DNA from: Candidatus Vallotiella sp. (ex Adelges kitamiensis)
GTDB taxonomy: Bacteria > Pseudomonadota > Gammaproteobacteria > Burkholderiales > Burkholderiaceae
Direction: 5' to 3'
Assembly: GCF_020342435.1 (NCBI RefSeq)
Contig: NZ_CP080504.1
Span: 697,081 to 761,080, forward strand
DNA: 64,000 nucleotides
A model generated the notes under the pieces. That model saw only the letters and a list, made by a program, of their open reading frames with translations. It ran no database searches and was not told the origin of the DNA. Position 1 is the stretch's first letter. The number at the start of each line of letters is the position of its first letter. Shown here one piece after another: positions 15,708-27,495 of this stretch. The position numbers and the translations under genes are program-made.

Positions 15708-17501
15708 TTATTTATCTTCAACTTTTAGGATAGCTAGAAATGCCTCTTGAGGAATCTCAATACTGCCGACTCGCTTCATTCTCTTCTTACCCTCTTTTTG
15801 CTTTTCGAGAAGCTTCTTCTTGCGAGTAATATCACCGCCATAGCACTTAGCTAATACGTTTTTACGTAACGCTTTAATGTTTTCACGCGCAATAATGTTC
15901 GAGCCGACGACTGCCTGTATTGCTACATCGTACATCTGCCGAGGAATGATTTCGCGCATCTTTGCAGCTACATGATGGCCTCGAGACTGGGATTGCGATC
16001 GATGGACTATCAATGATAGCGCGTCGACATTATTACCATTGATGAGCATATCGATCTTTATAACATCTGATATCCGGTATTCCTTAAACTCATAGTCCAT
16101 AGATGCATAGCCTCGTGATACAGATTTAAGGCGATCAAAAAAATCTAGGACAATTTCGGCCATTGGTATTTCATATGTTAGCTGTACTTGGCGACCGCGG
16201 TATAACATATTAATTTGATTGCCACGCTTACCTATGCATAGTTTAATAACTGCACCGATATAATCTTGAGGCATATATAGATTCATAGTCATGATCGGCT
16301 CACGAATCTCAGAAATCCTAGATGGCTCAGGCATCTTCGCTGGGTTTTCAACCGTTACTATCGAGCCATCTTCGATCAGAACCTGATAAATAACGGTTGG
16401 CGCGGTCGTAATTAGGTTCATATTGAATTCACGCTCGAGTCGCTCTTGCACGATTTCCATATGTAGTAAGCCTAAGAAGCCACAGCGAAAGCCACAGCCT
16501 AGCGCTTGAGAAACTTCAGGTTCATATTGCAGTGACGCATCGTTAAGCTTGAGTTTTTCAAGCGACTCGCGCAGCATATCGTACTGGTTGGCATTGACTG
16601 GATATAGTCCAGCAAATACCTTTGGCTTAACTTCCTTAAATCCAGGCAAAGGTTTAGTTGCTGGTTTTTTCAAATGAGTAATTGTGTCGCCGACCTTTGC
16701 GTCTGTTAACTCTTTAATTCCAGATATTATGAACCCGACCTCACCTGCAGATAAGATATTGCGATTTTGTGACTTTGGCGTAAACACGCCAACACGCTCA
16801 ACTAGATGTTGTGCACCGGTTACCATCATCCGAATCTTATCCTTCTGGCGCAACACGCCATTCATAATTCGCACTAACATCACAACACCAACGTAATTGT
16901 CGAACCATGAGTCAATAATTAGCGCTTGCAGCCGCGCCTGAGAATCTCCGCGGGGCGGTGGTACTTTAGCGATCAACGCTTCAAGCACATCTCGCACACC
17001 TAGGCCAGTTTTTGCGCTGCACTGAACTGCGTCCGCAGCAGGGATGCCAATTACATCCTCAATTTCAGAAATTGCGTTATGTGTATTCGCCGCTGCTAAA
17101 TCGATCTTATTAAGTACGGGCACAACCTCTATACCTAACTCAATCGCGGTATAGCAGTTTGCAACGGTCTGTGCTTCAACTCCCTGGCTTGCATCAACGA
17201 CCAGAAGCGCACCCTCACAGGCAGATAATGAACGACTTACCTCATATGAAAAATCAACATGACCAGGGGTATCAATTAAATTTAGGTTATAGATGCGACC
17301 ATCTTGTGATTGATAAGTTAATGCGGCAGTCTGCGCCTTAATCGTGATACCACGCTCCCGCTCCAGGTCCATTGAGTCGAGTACTTGCGTTTCTATTTCG
17401 CGAGCCGATAAACCTCCGCACAGCTGAATAATACGGTCAGCCAGCGTCGACTTACCGTGATCGATGTGCGCAATAATTGCAAAATTACGAGTATCATCCA
17501 T
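15708..17501 (-). CDS. lepA: Elongation factor 4 (LepA)
   Basis: LepA is a translational GTPase acting on ribosome back-translocation and 30S assembly. The 597-residue product has G1 [10 protein letters not shown] (11-20), the switch I RGITIKAQ segment, G3 DTPGHVDF, G4 NKID, the EF-G-like domains II, III and V, and the LepA-specific C-terminal domain ([20 protein letters not shown], then [16 protein letters not shown]). Length is typical (about 600). It leads the lepA-lepB-rnc cluster. The upstream space to degP is 414 bases. Confidence 0.98.
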
Positions 17502-17915: not shown

Positions 17916-19409
17916 TTACTTCTGCACTGGCTCGGCGGGCGGCCGAACGGGGATAAACTGTGTGTTATCTCCACGGCGGACTAGTAAAGCAATGCTCTTC
18001 TTGGAATCAAGTTGCCGTATAAGTAACTCAAATTGTTTGGTATCTAAGACGTCTGTATCGCCAATGCGCAGAATAATATCACCGCGCTGCAACCCAGTAC
18101 GAGTCCCCGGTCCATATAATTCATCAATCTGTACACCTCCTTTCAGGTGCATCAATTTAAGTTGCTCTGGCGACAGGTTACTAATCGCTAAACCCAGCTG
18201 ATTAAATGTGCGCTCGTGCGCTGGAGCGGGCCGGCTTGTTTTTACTTTCATCGTCATATCCGGCTGCATTTCAGCTATAAAAACCAATAAATTTTTTGTT
18301 TTACCCTTACGCCAGATAGTTAGTGTTGCCCGAATACCTGGCTTAGTTTCACCAACCATCCGCGGTAGGTCTGTTGTCGTATCTACATTGCGCCCATTAA
18401 ACTTCAGGATAATATCCCCGGGTTGCACTCCGGCATTATCGGCCGGGCTGTTTCTCTCGACGCTAGATACTAGTACACCCTTCACTTTTGCTAGACCTAG
18501 CGCATCTGACACTTCTTTAGTCACTTCAATAATTGCTACCCCAATCCGCCCTCGAATGACACGCCCGTTAACTTTAAGCTGGTCTGCAACGCGCATCGCC
18601 TCATCAATCGGGATAGCAAAAGAGATTCCCATATAACCGCCGGTACGGCTGTAAATTTGCGAGTTAATGCCAATTACTTCACCCCTCATATTAATCAAGG
18701 GCCCACCTGAATTACCGGGATTAACTGCAACATCAGTTTGAATAAACGGTAAATAATCACCAGTATCACGCCCTTTCGCGCTGACAATACCCGCAGTAAC
18801 TGTGTTTTCTAGCCCAAAAGGAGAGCCAATCGCTACGACCCATTCCCCGACTCGGACTTTATTTGAATCGCTGATCATCACGGTCGGCAGATTTTCCGCA
18901 TTAATCTTTACAAGCGCTACATCGGTGCGTTCATCTACGCCGATCAACTTTGCCTTAAACTCACGCTTATCAGTTAGAGTGACATAAATAGTGTCCGCAT
19001 CATGAACCACGTGTGCATTAGTCATTACATAGCCATTAGATGACAAAATAAAACCAGAGCCTACGCCGCTACTCTGCTCCGAATCTGAAGGATCTGCTGA
19101 CTTTCCGTCGCCTCCGTGAGAAGAATCTGGTTTCTCCTGCTGTTGTGGCAGCGGAATACCAAAGAAGCGCCTAAAGAATTCGGACATGTCGCTGTCCTCT
19201 AATCCTAGAGGCGGACTCGTCAAACCCTGTTTCTGCGCATGCGTTACGGTATGAATATTAATAACTGCTGGGCCCACCTTATCAACTAGGTTAGTAAAAT
19301 CTGGTAAGTTAGATGCGGATGGCGTACCAGCCGCGCACAGGTACACCAACGGAATACAGATGGTTACGGCAACCGCGAGCAGGAATCTGCGCACAGGATA
19401 AATACTCAT
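17916..19409 (-). CDS. degP: Periplasmic serine protease DegP/MucD
   Basis: This is a DegP/HtrA-family (MucD-type) periplasmic protease and chaperone that removes misfolded envelope proteins. The 497-residue product has an N-terminal signal segment (hydrophobic about 8-27), the trypsin-like triad H133 (TNAHVV), D163 (RTDVALVKI) and S234 (NPGNSGGPL), a Q/S-rich linker near 88-115, then two PDZ domains (about 270-365 and 405-490). It is intact. In Burkholderia it ends the rpoE-rseA-rseB-mucD cluster; here rpoE and rseB are fossils, so its control by sigma-E is presumably lost and it must use another promoter. Confidence 0.96.
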   Translation of the reverse strand: MSIYPVRRFLLAVAVTICIPLVYLCAAGTPSASNLPDFTNLVDKVGPAVINIHTVTHAQKQGLTSPPLGLEDSDMSEFFRRFFGIPLPQQQEKPDSSHGGDGKSADPSDSEQSSGVGSGFILSSNGYVMTNAHVVHDADTIYVTLTDKREFKAKLIGVDERTDVALVKINAENLPTVMISDSNKVRVGEWVVAIGSPFGLENTVTAGIVSAKGRDTGDYLPFIQTDVAVNPGNSGGPLINMRGEVIGINSQIYSRTGGYMGISFAIPIDEAMRVADQLKVNGRVIRGRIGVAIIEVTKEVSDALGLAKVKGVLVSSVERNSPADNAGVQPGDIILKFNGRNVDTTTDLPRMVGETKPGIRATLTIWRKGKTKNLLVFIAEMQPDMTMKVKTSRPAPAHERTFNQLGLAISNLSPEQLKLMHLKGGVQIDELYGPGTRTGLQRGDIILRIGDTDVLDTKQFELLIRQLDSKKSIALLVRRGDNTQFIPVRPPAEPVQK

Positions 19410-19859
19410 ATTGTCGACAAGAAGAAAAAACCGTGCGAGACCTCAATCGAGGAGCTTTGTATTCTATAGTAGAAATGAACTATGGAAGCATTCTTATCAG
19501 CACTCCGCCTAACACGGTAATCTAATAATTATCATTACGTCTGACTAGGATATATGTGACCTGACTCTCATCGGAGGTTTTATTGGGGGAATTATGCTCA
19601 CATAGATCGATAGAAATTAAGGTTCCATGAATCCTATCAGAAAATACTACCTAATTAGCAGAAAGAGGTAATACTGACAGATCGGGTAAGATTGTCACCG
19701 GTGAGTTTTCACCGCTTTTCAAAATTCTGGAATCTCCCTACATGTTCTACGACTTATAACGAATTTTTGTTTTTTAATGCTCGAACATATATAAGCCTTA
19801 AATCGAGTACAAAGATATAGACTTTATCTTTATGCCACAGTACATGATGTGCTCTGCTA

Positions 19860-20060
19860 TCTATACTTTCTAAGTATTCGTGTTGTCGTCAATATAATCA
19901 GTGAAATACGCGATAGATTTATCATTAAATTACCCTTATAGACAAAAGCCATTTGTGACCTTACAGCTATGGCACTCGAGACACATGTGTTGAGATATAT
20001 GTGATTCAAATAAATTGGCCGCCTTATGTCGATTAACAACGCGCATTAGTCTTTACAAGA
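19860..20060 (-). pseudogene. rseB: Probable rseB remnant
   Basis: The position between rpoE and degP is that of rseB (periplasmic regulator of anti-sigma-E) in Burkholderia. Minus-strand frames here show scattered similarity to its middle region: a C-x7-R-x4-(F/Y)-x-Y pattern (CVSSAIAVRSQMAFVYK), GFCL in another frame matching GYRL, and LIILTTTRIL resembling VQTLD-x3-RVI. Stops and frame changes break it. The rest of 19410-20820, including any rseA, could not be aligned. Boundaries cover only the recognisable core. Confidence 0.45.
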
Positions 20061-20823
20061 AGCTAAATGTGTGTGATTTCAGGAAGAATGAAATAAATAA
20101 TTCTACGATGGACATCTTTTTATGTAACTATTTCTATGTGTTTTAGTCTTGATTAATAAATCCTAAGCAGTTTTTAAACTTAAAAATAGTACATGTTGAT
20201 CGCAAACCGTATTACAATAGTATCCATATTTTTCACTCTTTTTATAAGAGTATTCAACGGAGTTAAAGCTAATTCAAACGTCTTATTGTATCTATACCTG
20301 AGTTCCTAACTAAAGTGCTTTATCCTGGTATACTGCCACTACTTAGCACACTAAATTTTGCACGGCCGCTGAACTTAACAGCGCAGTACTAGCGGCAACT
20401 ACAAGATATACAGTGACAGTGCCATAATATTAATTCAAGTGATATATACTCCGCAATGTCAACGGTGCCAATGCGATCGGATTATTGGAAAGTCTACTTG
20501 AAAATCGCACGAAGAACGGCGTTCTCTTGCTGTATCTTTATCTACCTCTACGAGGTTTGGGGAGCATCACCAATCAAATAATGTACAGCCCGTAAAGTTT
20601 GTCTTTAACATCCAGTCTTAATAAGAAATCTATAAATCTGTACGACATGCGCGCGCTTGTTACGCATCCACTTCTTCTAATGGCTCATTATCTGGAGCAA
20701 AAGAAAAATGCTCGGCAAGCGCAACGTAACTCTCTAATTCATTTATTTACAATGATATATATCTTAAAAATTCCTTTATTCTAAATAATCAAATCATTTT
20801 GATGAGTCCTGTACGTCTTTGTC

Positions 20824-21330
20824 CTACCATCGCTTTCTTATAAAAATTTCCAGAAATAGTCTTAATCTTACCGCGATAGCTTCACGAGCTCTAAAAATAC
20901 GAGATCGAACAGTACTGATTGAATAACCGATCATCTTAGTAATTTCTTTATAACTTAATCCTGCAATATCGCGTGGCGTGATTGCTATTCGTAACTCCCC
21001 GGGGTAACGCCGCTATAACGGTGTTGACTATTTGTGTAATTTGCTTGCCCATTAACACTGATTCAGGCAGATAAAAATCACTGGATAAAATTTCAGCTTT
21101 TTCTACATTATTTCGGTAGAAACTAACCTATCTAGCCTCTGTGTTGAAAGATAATTATTGGCGGTGTCAATAGCAATCTATGCGGTCACGTATAGGATTT
21201 AATTGTAGCTAGATCGTGTACAAGGCGCGCAATTAACCCGATAGTCTTATCGTTAGTAAATAGAATTTCAATGTGGCTTTTCACTTTTCTGTATGGGATC
21301 GACTAATTGGGTCGCTACCAAACAAGATGT
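20824..21330 (-). pseudogene. rpoE: Decayed rpoE (sigma-E, ECF sigma factor)
   Basis: Directly upstream of degP and downstream of fabF, where Burkholderia carries rpoE, the minus strand encodes broken pieces of an ECF sigma factor in correct order: FTNDKTIGLIARLVHD (near 21215-21265), RIAIDTANNYLSTQ (21140-21177), LMGKQITQIVNTVIAALP (near 21003-21060), then in another frame ELRIAIT, AGLSYKEITKMIGYSIST and VRSRIFRAREAIA (20860-20990), ending in KRW and a stop at 20824. The sequence coding for the core-binding segment between the first two blocks is deleted, and frameshifts separate the others, including one in the LPEEL motif. The sigma-4 helix-turn-helix is still legible. It cannot yield a functional sigma factor. 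Confidence 0.93.
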
Positions 21331-21564: not shown

Positions 21565-22803
21565 TTAAACTCGCTTGAATACTAATGTTCCATTCGTGCC
21601 ACCGAAGCCGAACGAATTCTTTAGCGCAACATCGATTTGCATATCCCGTGCGGTATTTGCACAGTAATCTAAATCGCACTCTGGATCCTGATTGAAAATA
21701 TTAATTGTCGGAGGCGATACCTGGTAATAAAGAGCTAATACAGTAAATACTGACTCTAGTCCACCTGCACCACCCAGCAAGTGGCCGGTCATCGATTTTG
21801 TAGAGTTTACAACCATATGCTTCACGTGGTCACCAAACGCGCGCTTAATGCCGATAGTTTCCGCTAGATCACCTAATAATGTTGATGTGCCATGGGCATT
21901 CAGATAGTGGACTTCATCCAAATTTATACGAGCGTTCTTCAATGCTGCCAGCATACAACGACGTGCGCCGTCGCCATCCTCGAGCGGCGACGTTATATGA
22001 TAAGCGTCAGAGCTCATGCCATAGCCAGCGACTTCGGCATAGATCTTCGCGCTTCGTGCCTTCGCGCGTTCGTATTCCTCAAGCACCATGACTCCAGCGC
22101 CCTCACCCAATGCGAAGCCGTCACGATCTCTATCCCATGGACGACTAGCAGTAGCCGGATCATCATTGCGGCGCGACAACGAGCGAGCGGCAGCAAATCC
22201 ACCAATGCCCAGTGGAGAAACAGCCGCTTCAGCGCCGCCGGCTAGCATCACGTCAGCATCGCCATATTCAATTAACCGCGCCGCCTCACCTATGCAGTGC
22301 AGTCCAGTCGTACATGCAGTCACAATCGCCAGGTTTGGTCCTTTAAAACCATAATATATTGATAAATGACCAGAAATCATATTAATGATTGAGGCTGGAA
22401 CAAAAAATGGGGAAATCCGTCGTGGCCCACGTCTAAGCATTTCAGTTTGCGTAACTTCAATCATTGGTAAGCCACCAATTCCTGAGCCAACTACGACGCC
22501 GATACGTTCCAGGTTCTCGCTTTCCGTGTTGATACCAGCATCCGTCATAGCCTGAACACCAGCTGCAAAACCGTAGTGTATGAAAGTATCCATATGGCGG
22601 GTTTCTTTAGCTACGATATAATCCTCAATGTTAAAGTTCTTAACTTCGCCAGCGAAACGCGTCGAAAAATTCGACGCGTCAAACTTTGTGATGTTTGCAA
22701 TTCCTGATTTACCAGCGACTAGGATCGCCCAACCGTCGGCAACGTTATTGCCAACGGGCGAAATTAGCCCCAGGCCGGTAACTACTACACGACGACCGCT
22801 CAA
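21565..22803 (-). CDS. fabF: 3-oxoacyl-ACP synthase II (FabF)
   Basis: FabF extends acyl-ACP by condensation with malonyl-ACP in fatty acid elongation. The 412-residue thiolase-fold enzyme carries the catalytic triad C164 (VTACTTG), H304 (NAHGTST) and H341 (TKSMTGHLLGGAGG), plus the C-terminal GFGGTNGTLVF glycine loop. Intact and of normal length. It ends the plsX-fabH-fabD-fabG-acpP-fabF cluster; a terminator-like hairpin lies between acpP and fabF, so fabF may receive reduced read-through. Confidence 0.97.
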   Translation of the reverse strand: MSGRRVVVTGLGLISPVGNNVADGWAILVAGKSGIANITKFDASNFSTRFAGEVKNFNIEDYIVAKETRHMDTFIHYGFAAGVQAMTDAGINTESENLERIGVVVGSGIGGLPMIEVTQTEMLRRGPRRISPFFVPASIINMISGHLSIYYGFKGPNLAIVTACTTGLHCIGEAARLIEYGDADVMLAGGAEAAVSPLGIGGFAAARSLSRRNDDPATASRPWDRDRDGFALGEGAGVMVLEEYERAKARSAKIYAEVAGYGMSSDAYHITSPLEDGDGARRCMLAALKNARINLDEVHYLNAHGTSTLLGDLAETIGIKRAFGDHVKHMVVNSTKSMTGHLLGGAGGLESVFTVLALYYQVSPPTINIFNQDPECDLDYCANTARDMQIDVALKNSFGFGGTNGTLVFKRV

Positions 22804-22832
22804 GATCTTATCCTTTTATAGATAACTGACAA

Positions 22833-22877
22833 TTAAAAGCCACAGAAGCTTCACGAAAATCCGTAAGTCCTGTGGCT
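22833..22877 (-). terminator. Hairpin between acpP and fabF
   Basis: On the minus strand AGCCACAG (22877-22870) pairs with CTGTGGCT (22845-22838), with further pairing of CTTACG against CGTGAAG inside, followed by TTTTAATT. This is a Rho-independent terminator form just after acpP. It would raise acpP mRNA relative to fabF, as is common for ACP genes. Confidence 0.7.
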
Positions 22878-22900
22878 ATAACCTGCAAAGATACAAATAC

Positions 22901-23140
22901 TTAAACCTTAATATTTGTTTTAGCGTAGTCAATTGCTTGCTGGACTGTGGTGATATTCTCGGCCTCTTCATCTGGAATCTCGATATTGAACTCGTCTTCC
23001 AGAGCCATTACGAGCTCAACAGTATCTAGAGAATCAGCTCCTAAATCGTTGATGAAAGAGGCTTCGCTCTTTATTTCTGATTCAGATACGCCAAGTTGTT
23101 CTGCGACGATCTTCTTAACACGCTGTTCCATGTTGTCCAT
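22901..23140 (-). CDS. acpP: Acyl carrier protein
   Basis: ACP carries growing acyl chains on a phosphopantetheine arm. The 79-residue acidic four-helix protein has the modification site Ser37 in GADSLDTVE. It is nearly identical in form to Burkholderia AcpP. A strong Shine-Dalgarno (GGGAGGG) stands about 5 bases before the ATG, fitting the high expression normal for ACP. The modifying enzyme gene acpS is missing from its usual place next to nagZ, so another phosphopantetheinyl transferase must exist elsewhere if this ACP works. Confidence 0.98.
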
Positions 23141-23273
23141 GTATCCCTCCCAGGGAAAGTGAGTTCAAAAATACAAGTTCGCGCATTTTATCAGGTTTAG
23201 TCGGCATAAAATGAGGCGCGATTATTCCTCACAATGTTTGCGAGCATTGTAGTAAGCGCCCCGGTATCTGTTA

Positions 23274-24020
23274 TCACATGTACATACCACCATTAACATG
23301 CAAAGTTGTACCCGTAATGTATCCCGCTTTCTCTGAGGCAAGAAATACAACTGCGTGAGCGACGTCTTCTGGTGTACCTAGCCGGCCTAATGGAATATAG
23401 GTATCGAGCGCTGCTCGCTGGACTGCTGGCATTATACGAGTCATATCTGTGTCAATAAAACCTGGTGCTACACAATTAACGGTAATGTTACGACTGCCGA
23501 TCTCGCGTGCTAGCGCCCGCGTCATACCAGATACCCCCGCTTTAGCCGCTGCATAATTGACTTGCCCTGAATTACCGGTTGAGCCAACAACTGATGTAAT
23601 GCTAATAATGCGTCCGCTACGCGCTTTAATCATCGGCCGCAGTACAGCACGTGATAAGCAAAATACGGCCTTAAGATTAGTGTTAATCACTGCATCCCAC
23701 TCATTATTCTTCATCCGCATCGCAAGTTGGTCCTGCGTAATTCCAGCATTATTTACAAGGATATTTAATCCCCCAAACTCTTTAACTATAGAATCGACTA
23801 ATATATCGACTGCGCAGTCATCGTTGACATCCAGTACAGCACAATGACCAATAATGTTCTCGGCACGCAACATATCATTAATTAGTAATGCACTATTATT
23901 GGACCTAGTAGTACCGATTACCGTCGCGCCAGCGCGACCAAGCATAAGTGCAATCGCGCGGCCAATGCCGCGCGACACGCCGGTGATTAATGCAATCTGT
24001 TTATCGAGTAATTTTCCCAT
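23274..24020 (-). CDS. fabG: 3-oxoacyl-ACP reductase (FabG)
   Basis: FabG reduces 3-oxoacyl-ACP with NADPH in each elongation cycle. The 248-residue short-chain dehydrogenase has the cofactor loop TGVSRGIG (13-20), NNAG (90-93), and catalytic S143, Y156 and K160 (VNYAAAKAG). The C-terminal YITGTTLHVNGGMYM is typical of FabG. Intact; it lies between fabD and acpP on the same strand. Confidence 0.97.
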   Translation of the reverse strand: MGKLLDKQIALITGVSRGIGRAIALMLGRAGATVIGTTRSNNSALLINDMLRAENIIGHCAVLDVNDDCAVDILVDSIVKEFGGLNILVNNAGITQDQLAMRMKNNEWDAVINTNLKAVFCLSRAVLRPMIKARSGRIISITSVVGSTGNSGQVNYAAAKAGVSGMTRALAREIGSRNITVNCVAPGFIDTDMTRIMPAVQRAALDTYIPLGRLGTPEDVAHAVVFLASEKAGYITGTTLHVNGGMYM

Positions 24021-24067
24021 TTTGTCTTAGCTCCGAGTTGATGTTTCATCCTGAGGATAGATTAAAA

Positions 24068-25000
24068 TCAACTCTGCAATAGTTTCAACATATTGTTGAG
24101 CAACGCTAAATCAGCGATTGAACCAGCCACTAGGCTGGTATCAATGCATCGTGTCATTCTAGTCAATATCCTTCCAGGCCCGCATTCGATCATATGCGTA
24201 ATATTCTGTGCAGCAATCGCACGTACACATTCGACCCAGCGAACCGGCGAAGCCGCCTGGCGCACAAGAGCATCTTTTATACTCTCTGGATTCGAAACAA
24301 TTGCTACATCGACATTATTAATCACTGGAATTTGAGGCACACACATGCTGACATCAGCTAGATACTCTCGTAAACGTTCAGACGCTGGTTTAAGTAGAGA
24401 TGAATGAAAAGGTGCTGATACCGGTAGTAATACCGTGTGCTTTGCACCTTTAGCTTTAGCGATCTCGCATGCCTTTTCTACGGCCGTCATATAGCCCGCA
24501 ATAACGACTTGTGCTGGCGTATTAAAGTTGACTGCCTCGACGACCCCAGCAGACCCCGCTTCAAAGCAAGCGTCGAGCACAGCATCATCATCTAACCCTA
24601 AAATTGCTGCCATGCCCCCAACCTGCGTCTGAACTGCTTGTTGCATCGCCTGCGCACGAAAGCGAACCAGTAGAACCGCATCACGAAATGTAATGGCGTT
24701 TGAAGCGACTAACGCTGTATATTCGCCAAGACTATGACCGGCAACAATGTCCGGTACTGCCCCCCCGGACTGCTGCCACACGCGATAAATTGCATATGCA
24801 GCAGTAAGCATTACCGGTTGCGTATGAGTGGTAAGGTTCAGTTGGTCGATCGGCCCCCGCTCTATTAAGCGGCCGATATCCTGTTGTAATGCATCGGACG
24901 CTTCTTCAAGCGTCGCCTTTACAGCAGGGTGATCTCGAAATATATCGAGCATACCGACTGATTGCGAACCTTGACCTGGAAAAACAAACGCGAATTTCAT
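24068..25000 (-). CDS. fabD: Malonyl-CoA:ACP transacylase (FabD)
   Basis: FabD moves malonyl from CoA to ACP, supplying the elongation unit. I start at the Met at 25000 because MKFAFVFPGQGSQ is the family N-terminus; the open frame upstream to 25120 only overlaps fabH. The 310-residue protein has the nucleophile S90 in the GHSLGEY motif, an arginine downstream (VRFRAQAMQ) that binds malonate, and the catalytic His in SAPFHSS near residue 199. Intact, between fabH and fabG. Confidence 0.96.
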   Translation of the reverse strand: MKFAFVFPGQGSQSVGMLDIFRDHPAVKATLEEASDALQQDIGRLIERGPIDQLNLTTHTQPVMLTAAYAIYRVWQQSGGAVPDIVAGHSLGEYTALVASNAITFRDAVLLVRFRAQAMQQAVQTQVGGMAAILGLDDDAVLDACFEAGSAGVVEAVNFNTPAQVVIAGYMTAVEKACEIAKAKGAKHTVLLPVSAPFHSSLLKPASERLREYLADVSMCVPQIPVINNVDVAIVSNPESIKDALVRQAASPVRWVECVRAIAAQNITHMIECGPGRILTRMTRCIDTSLVAGSIADLALLNNMLKLLQS

Positions 25001-25076
25001 GGCGGACTCGAATAAAAAGTAGCGAAACAGCATGTAGTGGAGCGGCACAACAAACATCTTACTGTCATGTATGCAA

Positions 25077-26063
25077 CTACATACAAATGATTGCTGCGCC
25101 CCAAGTAAATCCGCCGCCAACGCCTTCGATTAGTATTCGATCACCAGCCTTAACACGTCCATCACGCACCGCTACGTCTAGTGCTAATGGAATCGATGCA
25201 GCCGAAGTATTACCATGCTCACCAAGCGTTACAACCATACGTTCTAATGGTAAACCCAACTTGCGGCATGTGCCACGCATAATCCGGATGTTGGCCTGAT
25301 GCGGAATCAACCAATCGATCTGGTCCGCAGACATGTTAGCCTTAGCCAGAGCTTCGCGTGCTACCTTTTCAAGCACGTTCACTGCAAGCTTAAATACTGC
25401 GGGCCCGTCCATATGCAACAATGCACTACCTTGAACAATACCACCATTAACATTGCCTGGCGCGCATAGGATATGCGCATAGCTACCATCTGCGTGGAGC
25501 GCACTAGCTAGCAATCCCGGATAATCCGATGCAGTAAGCACAACAGCACCAGCGCCATCGCCGAACAACACGCAGGTAGTTCTATCCTTAAAATCGAGCA
25601 AACGGGAAAATGTTTCGGCGCCCATCACTAGGGCATTTCGATACGTGCCACCACGAATTAACCCATCGGCTACCGCTAATGCATAGACGAACCCAGAGCA
25701 GACCGCTTGCACATCGAATGCTGCGCTTCCATTACGGATGCCAAGTTTATCTTGAACCAGGCAAGCTGTACTCGGAAATACGAAATCGGGTGTTGATGTG
25801 GCAACGATAATCAGCTCGATCGCCTGTAAATCCATTCTAGCTGCCTCGAGTGCGCGGCGTGCGGCTATCAGTGCAAGATCGCTAGTAGCTTGCTCGGGGG
25901 TGGAAAAGTAGCGCGAATGAATCCCCGTGCGCGCTACAATCCATTCATCATTTGTCTCAATTCCATACTGCGCAAGGCGCTCAGCTAGCGTCTGGTTAGT
26001 GATGCGAATCCTGGGAAGGTAGCTACCAGTGCCAAGTACACGCGAGTAGGAGTGAGCCATCAT
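25077..26063 (-). CDS. fabH: 3-oxoacyl-ACP synthase III (FabH)
   Basis: FabH starts fatty acid synthesis by condensing acetyl-CoA with malonyl-ACP. The 328-residue product carries C122 (VCSGF), H255 (PHQANIRI) and N285 ([10 protein letters not shown]), the full KAS III triad, with the [10 protein letters not shown] loop at the C-terminus. The ATG at 26063 overlaps the plsX stop as ATGA (a second ATG follows at 26060), indicating translational coupling. Intact. Confidence 0.97.
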
Positions 26064-27202
26064 GCGTTCGATGATAGCGCGCCCAACAGCCGAATCGCGA
26101 ATCTTGCAGGACGACCAGTAGTCGCATTAAACAGCACTTGTGTGCTAGATATATCAGATTCGCTAGAATCGGTATTCTCAGAACGAGTAAGCGGATTAGC
26201 ATTTTCCTCTAAAGCCCACTTTAGACGCTGGAGGACGCCGTTCTTGACGGCATCATACCCGCGCTTTATAGCCCATTCAAACGCGTACGCATCAGCTGAA
26301 CCGTGACTTTTAATTACTAGGCCGCATAGTCCAAGTAGCACGGCGCCGTTATACTGGCGTGCATCGATTCTCTTTTTAAAGCGAGATAGTACTGGAAGTG
26401 CAATTAGCGCCATTAGTTTCGTAGCCCATGAGCGATTAAACTCTTCGAGAATCATATCGGCGAGCATCCGCGCGAGTCCCTCGGATGTCTTCAATGCGAC
26501 GTTGCCAACAAAGCCATCACAAATGATTACGTCGACTATGCCTTTATAAATGTCGTTTCCTTCAACATTGCCTCGAAAATTAAGTGTACTTGCCCTCAAT
26601 AGCTCGCCAGCACGCTTAATAGTATTGTTTCCTTTAATTACCTCTTCACCAATGTTTAGCAATCCAATAGATGGACGATCTTTACCCTCGATCGCAGACA
26701 CGAGTGCATGCCCCATTTCAGCAAATTGCAATAAATTCTGCGGTCCGCAGTCGACATTCGCACCCAAGTCAAGCATTGTTGTATACCCAACCTGATTCGG
26801 CAGGGCAAAAGCGATCGCAGGTCGATCAATGCCGGGCAATGTTTTAAGAACGTACCGCGACACCGCCATCAACGCGCCCGTATTACCTGCTGAAATACAT
26901 GCTTGCGCGCAACCTGCCTTAACTAGATTCAAAGCGACACGCATCGACGAATCTCTCTTCTTCCGTAGCGCGATCTCAACGGAGTCGTCCATTGCAACGA
27001 CTCCGCTTGCCCTGATGATCGACAGCGTTGGTATATCAGACATCTTATATCGCTTGAGCTGCGCGCGGATTGCCTCATACAATCCTACTAGTACAAGTTG
27101 CGCGTCTGGATGCGCCCGCGCAAAACTAACTGCGGCAGGAACCGTCACAGCTGGGCCGTGGTCACCCCCCATGCAGTCGATTGCGATCTTTATTATAGTC
27201 AT
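26060..27202 (-). CDS. plsX: Phosphate acyltransferase PlsX
   Basis: PlsX converts acyl-ACP to acyl-phosphate for the PlsX/PlsY route to lysophosphatidic acid, linking fatty acid to phospholipid synthesis. I start at the ATG 27202 ([17 protein letters not shown]), matching the family; a TTG four codons upstream is less likely. The 380-residue protein has the GGDHGP loop, [10 protein letters not shown] and [15 protein letters not shown] motifs. The last 35-40 residues are less conserved. It heads the fab cluster, with rpmF upstream and an intervening terminator-like hairpin at 27227-27254. Confidence 0.95.
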
Positions 27203-27226
27203 GGAATACAACAAATCTTAGATACA

Positions 27227-27254
27227 AAAAAGCGGCAGATCAATGCCGCTTTTT
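27227..27254 (-). terminator. Terminator/attenuator between rpmF and plsX
   Basis: Perfect 11-bp arms aaaaagcggca (27227-27237) and tgccgcttttt (27244-27254) surround a 6-base loop. On the minus strand the stem ends in TTTTTT, a classic Rho-independent terminator. It lies between rpmF and plsX, so L32 mRNA can end here and only some transcripts may continue into plsX and the fab genes. The symmetric A/T flanks would also allow use from the opposite direction. Confidence 0.85.
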
Positions 27255-27315
27255 GACAAAGCCAGAGTAATAGAATCGTAAGAAGACGAGATAGGCGGCC
27301 ATTTCAACTAAACAC

Positions 27316-27495
27316 TTAGTCGCTCTTAGTCTTAACGACTTTTTTTCCTCGATAGTAGCCGTTTGGACTGATATGATGACGTAGATGAACTGCACCAGTG
27401 CCTGGTTCAATAGCCAGAGGGGACGCATCTAGAAAATCGTGTGAACGGTGCATACCACGTTTTGATGCGGATTTTTTATTCTGCTGAACTGCCAT
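27316..27495 (-). CDS. rpmF: Ribosomal protein L32
   Basis: L32 is a small protein of the 50S subunit. The 59-codon frame begins ATG at 27495 with [20 protein letters not shown] and ends [10 protein letters not shown] before TAA at 27316-27318. It is full length for beta-proteobacteria, basic, and lacks the zinc-ribbon cysteines, as other proteobacterial L32s do. It is immediately upstream of plsX as in most proteobacteria, and its usual upstream partner yceD is a fossil. Confidence 0.96.

Follow-up and report, generated by a model that had tools for sequence, protein, structure and literature searches.

The genes considered here form a single rpoE-rseA-rseB-degP operon in beta-proteobacteria such as Bordetella, as described in passages of PMC8263021, and Mycetohabitans, where degP follows rseB. 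The closest known sequence of events to the one proposed below is that of Pseudomonas aeruginosa in cystic fibrosis lungs, where, according to passages of PMC5874919, mutation of mucA frees AlgT and algT mutants appear later as nonmucoid revertants. In that case, as in our proposal, damage within a host begins with the gene for the anti-sigma factor that restrains an RpoE-type sigma factor, and the sigma factor gene (algT, also called algU) breaks later; however, the Pseudomonas changes are mutations within infections and concern alginate, whereas the changes described here are fixed between symbiont species and RseP is missing as well. The RpoE protein of the symbiont Vallotia lariciata matches both 1or7 (a sigma-E factor, presumably from Escherichia coli; residues 1-191, E 1e-63) and 6in7 (a sigma-H factor, presumably from P. 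aeruginosa; residues 4-191, E 6e-63); unlike in those systems, no relative of RseA was found in the genome of the Vallotia symbiont. Other insect symbionts likewise keep few sigma factors: passages of PMC3914690 report rpoD, rpoH and rpoS in SOPE and rpoE in Sodalis glossinidius, and these passages say nothing about what became of the anti-sigma factor.

The window analyzed here is a 64,000-nucleotide stretch of the genome of a Candidatus Vallotia-type symbiont; the hosts of such symbionts are adelgids. This genome (G000, hereafter V0) comprises 1,172,651 bp (1.17 Mb) in two contigs of 1,105,254 and 67,397 bp. It was compared with three other genomes that we call Vallotia-type, namely V2 (G002), V4 (G004) and V5 (G005), and with four that we call Mycetohabitans-type, G001, G003 and G007 among them. 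By synteny, the ancestral gene order is fabF-rpoE-rseA-rseB-degP-lepA. The window retains this order in the following form.

15708-17501, minus strand: lepA, intact, the downstream neighbor.
17916-19409, minus strand: degP, an intact open reading frame for a Do-family HtrA serine protease of 497 amino acids.
19410-19539, minus strand: conserved degP leader, the 130 bp that precede the ATG; candidate region for a promoter and translation start of degP itself.
19447-19885, minus strand: rseB (mucB) fossil, in two pieces (19885-19760 and 19683-19447) found by tblastn.
20448-20758, minus strand: rseA (anti-sigma factor) fossil, in two pieces (20758-20675 and 20654-20448) found by tblastn.
20824-21306, minus strand: rpoE fossil, with its start lost, deletions, frameshifts and in-frame stops; the sigma-4 part is best preserved.
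21307-21329, minus strand: approximate junction at which the rpoE start and the upstream promoter-like block are missing; break points approximate, from alignments read by eye.
21565-22803, minus strand: fabF, intact, the upstream neighbor and an evolutionary yardstick.

Compared with the Bordetella and Mycetohabitans operon, only degP is alive in V0, and rpoE, rseA and rseB stand before it as fossils, in ancestral order. The gap between fabF and degP, both on the minus strand, is 2,155 bp long, has a G+C content of 36.5% and contains no open reading frame of 80 codons or more.

This interval was searched by tblastn with RpoE of V. lariciata and of Mycetohabitans and with RseA and RseB of Mycetohabitans, and all four scores lay beyond those of every one of 300 dinucleotide shuffles. 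The best single RpoE match reached 73.9 bits (shuffle maximum, 21.9; 0/300). The RpoE pieces are collinear on the minus strand and lie between fabF and degP, as expected of the rpoE ortholog, and the frame changes between them: a region-2 piece of 17 residues at 21248-21198, weak alone (E 5.4), a linker piece at 21079-20999, and a sigma-4 piece at 20997-20827 that is 68% identical to V. lariciata RpoE over 57 residues. The stop codon occupies positions 20826-20824, in agreement with the start coordinate of 20824 given in the preliminary description of this DNA. In alignment, the fossil carries five single-base frameshifts and deletions of 6, 15 and 66 bp, the largest in region 2, with the exact lesions depending on the alignment, and the start codon is gone together with at least the first 26 coding bases. 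Alignments read by eye also place a TACAAT-like block upstream of rpoE in relatives that is missing before the fossil. The rpoE genes of V2, V4 and V5 align without gaps. Frameshifts, stops and deletions thus leave no open frame with regions 2 and 4, as a working rpoE would have. The preliminary description had called both the sigma-4 and the region-2 pieces legible but frame-broken; we recovered the sigma-4 piece and the broken frames, but much of region 2 has been deleted.

An assembly or sequencing artifact is hardly credible as the source of these lesions. One single-base insertion does sit in a C/G run, but there are eight lesions and a lost start, and one of the eight is a 66-bp deletion. 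Substitutions also speak against an artifact: where V2, V4 and Mycetohabitans agree, V0 rpoE departs at 50/255 sites in codon positions 1 and 2 and at 21/57 sites in position 3, compared with 21/326 and 14/68 for V2 and 21/326 and 17/71 for V4, each on its own site set, and the rise in positions 1 and 2 over V2 is significant (p 2e-6). By a rough estimate, rpoE of V0 evolved neutrally over about one third of its branch.

We also considered whether the sigma-4 end might still be expressed as a small DNA-binding protein, which we judge very unlikely. The 171-nt sigma-4 stretch (20827-20997) has no indel, unlike the 5' part of the fossil, and it has changed at 16/30 third positions compared with 14/102 first and second positions (p 2e-5); in the 5' part, the corresponding counts are 20/53 and 42/178 (p 0.05). 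However, the contrast between the two parts is not significant (p 0.06), the sole ATG, GTG or TTG of the 62-residue open frame falls within the helix-turn-helix, and a remnant without region 2 cannot be a sigma factor. The asymmetry between codon positions is, moreover, what would be expected if rpoE died late on its branch, and such a late death is probably why the sigma-4 piece has kept it.

No second sigma factor of this type was found to replace the lost one: searches of the genome with the PF08281, PF04542 and PF04545 profiles and with RpoE protein revealed no other ECF sigma factor or rpoE, and the intact copy elsewhere that the preliminary description had suggested looking for did not appear. 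The PF08281 profile matched one place, the fossil. PF04542 (region 2) matched two places, in open frames of 718 and 328 codons, and PF04545 matched the same two frames and the fossil; from their lengths, we take these sigma-70-type frames to be rpoD and rpoH. The RpoE query had its sole match at the fossil, with 47% identity over query residues 89-211 and four TAG codons and one TAA codon inside.

The regulators of RpoE have decayed in the same interval. The Mycetohabitans RseA query gave linked pieces with stops inside (E 2e-6; best score, 32.3 bits; shuffle maximum, 23.1; 0/300), and RseB gave two pieces, also with stops inside (E 5e-11 and 3.6e-4; best score, 55.8 bits; shuffle maximum, 22.3; 0/300). 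Among the 18 genomes searched with the RseA_N and MucB_RseB profiles, all 4 of the Mycetohabitans-type genomes were matched, compared with 0 of the 4 Vallotia-type genomes. Remnants of rseB were detected in the fabF-degP interval of V2 (E 6e-7) and weakly in those of V4 (1e-3) and V5 (2e-3), and tblastn gave no significant rseA match in these three intervals. From the rpoE fossil down to the last 340 bp before degP, V0, V2 and V4 share only 55-58% identity along the decayed rseA-rseB stretch; therefore, rseA and rseB have long been dead. A full-length RseP-type M50 site-2 protease was found in 2/2 Mycetohabitans-type genomes searched and in 0/4 Vallotia-type genomes; a different and shorter M50 protein occurs in V4 and V5. 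In Mycetohabitans, rseP lies between dxr and bamA; in the Vallotia-type genomes, 480-753 bp separate the matches to these two genes, which is too short for rseP, and a significant rseP remnant was found there only in V5 (E 4e-20). V0 therefore has RseA as a fossil only, and neither an intact RseB nor an RseP was found in it. The loss of rseA, rseB and rseP may have been one ancestral event, or the losses could be parallel. Shared inactivating changes in rseA were considered as an ancestral mark and set aside: among the stops seen by eye in the listed alignment columns, one is shared by V2, V4 and V5 and absent from V0, another is shared by V0 and V5, and the DNA is too decayed to decide.

The three sister genomes suggest an order for these losses. 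V2, V4 and V5 encode intact RpoE proteins of 199 residues from the conserved start, which score 288-294 bits against the RpoE equivalog TIGR02939 (cut-off, 236.15). These proteins are under purifying selection: dN/dS is 0.187 (V2-V4), 0.105 (V2-V5) and 0.097 (V4-V5) by NG86 and 0.15-0.29 by YN00, values that average whole branches and may partly reflect time spent with RseA. For V2-V4, the RpoE range of 0.19-0.29 exceeds those of degP (0.08-0.10) and fabF (0.03-0.05), a rise that would also fit a slowly decaying RpoE; by NG86 among all four genomes, degP gave 0.075-0.097 and fabF gave 0.031-0.042. In a protein tree of fabF, degP and lepA, V0, V2 and V4 group together (support, 100) and V5 joins next (support, 98, or 96 without lepA); the order of V0, V2 and V4 among themselves is weak (56-57). 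Since V0 groups with V2 and V4, then with V5, and all three have intact rpoE, the gene was lost on the branch of V0 itself. Passages of PMC12696581 describe Vallotia as a clade distinct from Mycetohabitans. As a separate observation on these genomes, PMC8857208 gives plasmids of 61 kb for V. cooleyia and 67 kb for V. lariciata; the V. lariciata chromosome CP047399 pairs with the 61,393-bp second contig of G004, the second contig of G000 has 67,397 bp, and the species labels may be swapped.

The sisters keep an intact rpoE without RseA, RseB and RseP, and the stress-responsive circuit was therefore probably broken before rpoE was lost. The preliminary description was right that an intact degP survives beside a dead rpoE; degP is also under selection, and no rpoE was found elsewhere in the genome. 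Its premise that the sigma factor was the first part to die is not supported, and is probably wrong, given the rseA and rseB fossils found here and the live rpoE of three sisters in which RseA, RseB and RseP were not found. An origin of the whole decay in the death of the sigma factor, which would have taken the circuit with it, is accordingly improbable, although the window by itself, with rpoE dead and degP intact, would fit it and the losses in the sisters might have occurred in parallel.

It is considerably more probable, and the reading that we prefer, that the sigma-E operon in the window shows the final stage of an ordered series of losses, in which the brake went before the sigma factor. 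In the ancestor, RseA would have held RpoE at the membrane, and proteases that included RseP would have cut RseA upon envelope stress. The first losses in the Vallotia lineage would have been those of the brake, RseA, of RseB, which partners it, and of RseP, the site-2 protease. RpoE would then have been left without RseA, presumably always free, and would have evolved faster under purifying selection until, in the species of V0, rpoE was broken. The degP gene would survive because its product is still needed. Its transcription would presumably begin in the conserved region upstream of it, with the housekeeping sigma factor, or else reach it as read-through from the fab genes.

A survey of 150 genomes of the family extended the comparison beyond Vallotia. 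The RseA profile matched 110 genomes and RpoE matched 117, and all 110 genomes with RseA had RpoE. RseA without RpoE was found in 0/150 genomes, compared with six genomes, of 1.1-2.8 Mb, that have RpoE without RseA: V2, V4, V5, G008, G024 and G060. In G008, rpoE follows fabF, and rseA, rseB and degP were not found within the 10 kb fetched. G024 and G060 belong to genus g18, which we take to be Mycoavidus; in both, rpoE is followed directly by degP with no rseA or rseB, the absence of RseB from G060 applying to its 10-kb locus. A third g18 genome, G074, gave no RpoE match, and at its locus a degP open frame of 509 codons is preceded by no more of rpoE than approximately the final 19 codons; G074 is thus a second case of the end state seen in the window. 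RpoE without RseA is accordingly known from about three lineages, Vallotia, g18 and G008.

G041 (2.0 Mb), the seventh genome with RpoE but no match to the RseA profile, was counted among the genomes with RseA, as a divergent rseA-like gene (201 codons, at the position of rseA) and rseB (a 358-codon RseB relative, 27.6% identity) adjoin its rpoE. Its rpoE-rseA-rseB cluster is very divergent (RpoE, 54% identity) and is preceded by a gene that is presumably folD-like; no fabF or degP match was found within the 10 kb fetched.

These counts bear on the possibility that there was no set order, with regulatory genes lost at random under relaxed selection and the genomes with rpoE but no rseA being mere snapshots. 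We consider this the less probable account, though one that deserves some weight: the brake-first order rests on about three lineages and might have arisen by chance, and the raised dN/dS of RpoE would suit slow decay equally well. Against random order stand the survey counts of none and six and the state of the three sisters, in which RpoE is intact and selected beside an rseA-rseB stretch that has decayed.

Divergence measured against Mycetohabitans endofungorum adds a shift in the rate of RpoE evolution. In 74 genomes with RseA, the RpoE/FabF divergence ratio has a mean of 0.33 and a maximum of 0.49; without RseA, it is 2.98 (V2), 2.59 (V4), 2.36 (V5), 1.13 and 1.21 (g18) and 1.39 (G008). 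Four of the 74 genomes, which we assume from their names to be leaf-nodule symbionts, have ratios of 0.22-0.47. Of 170 RpoE sites that are invariant in 78 genomes with RseA, each of the six proteins from genomes without it has substitutions at 20-58, and region 2, the linker and region 4 all contain such changes. The set comprised 89 loci, from which L058, L060, L070 and L077 were dropped (cut contigs); the ratio excludes the four Mycetohabitans loci, which reduces 78 genomes to 74, and L002 repeats L083, so that seven rows without RseA represent six genomes. These genomes are not independent, and the p-value for their complete separation ignores kinship and is not relied upon. Part of the shift could be a general acceleration in reduced genomes; that explanation is weakened because the DegP yardstick shows the shift too, with an RpoE/DegP ratio that has a mean of 0.16 and a maximum of 0.23 with RseA and is 0.67-1.46 in the five genomes without RseA that have degP at the locus.

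The surviving gene, degP, is intact, as the preliminary description had stated. DegP scores 495 bits against TIGR02037 (cut-off, 416.2) and has the Trypsin_2 and PDZ domains of the Do family, and its dN/dS of 0.08-0.13 between V0 and V2, V4 and V5 indicates purifying selection. A second HtrA of about 400 amino acids, which might be the site-1 protease of the circuit in this group, is intact in V4 and V5 and is a fragment in V0 (C1:59743-59934, L162) and V2 (C1:1019513-1019731).

The preliminary description had reasoned that degP needs either constitutive expression or a different promoter, which would follow logically from a dead rpoE. The 130-bp leader of degP is 101/125 (81%) identical to V2 and 108/129 (84%) identical to V4, compared with 265/431 (61%) and 526/921 (57%) for the decayed DNA that separates the leader from the rpoE fossil (p 4e-5 and 1e-9, respectively, by Fisher's test). 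The last 34 bp before the ATG are 100% identical to V2 and 91% identical to V4, and a TAGAAT hexamer in the leader is, as judged by eye, kept in the six aligned sequences. This conservation fits a candidate leader or promoter of degP itself; the other simple possibility would be that transcripts of the fab genes, which share its strand, run on into degP. No recognizable sigma-70 promoter for degP was found: no site in the leader passed the standard scan, and between 19380 and 21600 there were three promoter-like sites compared with 9.2 expected in shuffles, none of them within 690 bp before degP on its strand. The scan of the fab genes (22700-27400) was likewise uninformative, with six sites compared with 7.6 expected.

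Each gene of this locus is ordinary; the interest lies in the order of loss and in its repetition in a second genus. That symbionts with small genomes lose regulators is well established; the sequence in which a single circuit is taken apart can rarely be seen. Here, four Vallotia-type and three g18 genomes display stages in between, among them a sigma factor that has outlived its anti-sigma factor and changes several times faster relative to FabF. They thereby allow the idea that inducible responses are locked in the "on" state before their regulators vanish to be tested directly. We suggest, tentatively and with less confidence than the order in the window itself, that freeing sigma-E from its anti-sigma factor may be an early, repeated and favored step as Burkholderiaceae become host-bound. 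An always-on response would shed its brake and sensors first and pass through a long phase with a free, readapting RpoE; targets such as degP would then pass to housekeeping transcription and the sigma factor would be dropped, with Vallotia and g18 as parallel runs. A limited literature search, by title and abstract opening and with subscription papers mostly outside it, found no earlier account of this order. The terms rpoE, sigma, degP and rse have no occurrence in the main text of PMC8692619 or PMC8857208, nor do rpoE, sigma, degP and anti-sigma in that of PMC12696581.

A further motif was noted upstream of rpoE in the wider family. GTAAC-N4-GTAAC was absent from the three sister Vallotia-type genomes, from L049, L052 and L071, and from the whole window. 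It occurs within 400 bp before rpoE in 11 of the 17 loci checked (L004, L010, L024, L037, L076, L078, L085, L088, L096, L098 and L132, the last being the G074 stub), and its two boxes, 9 bp apart, look like a response-regulator site.
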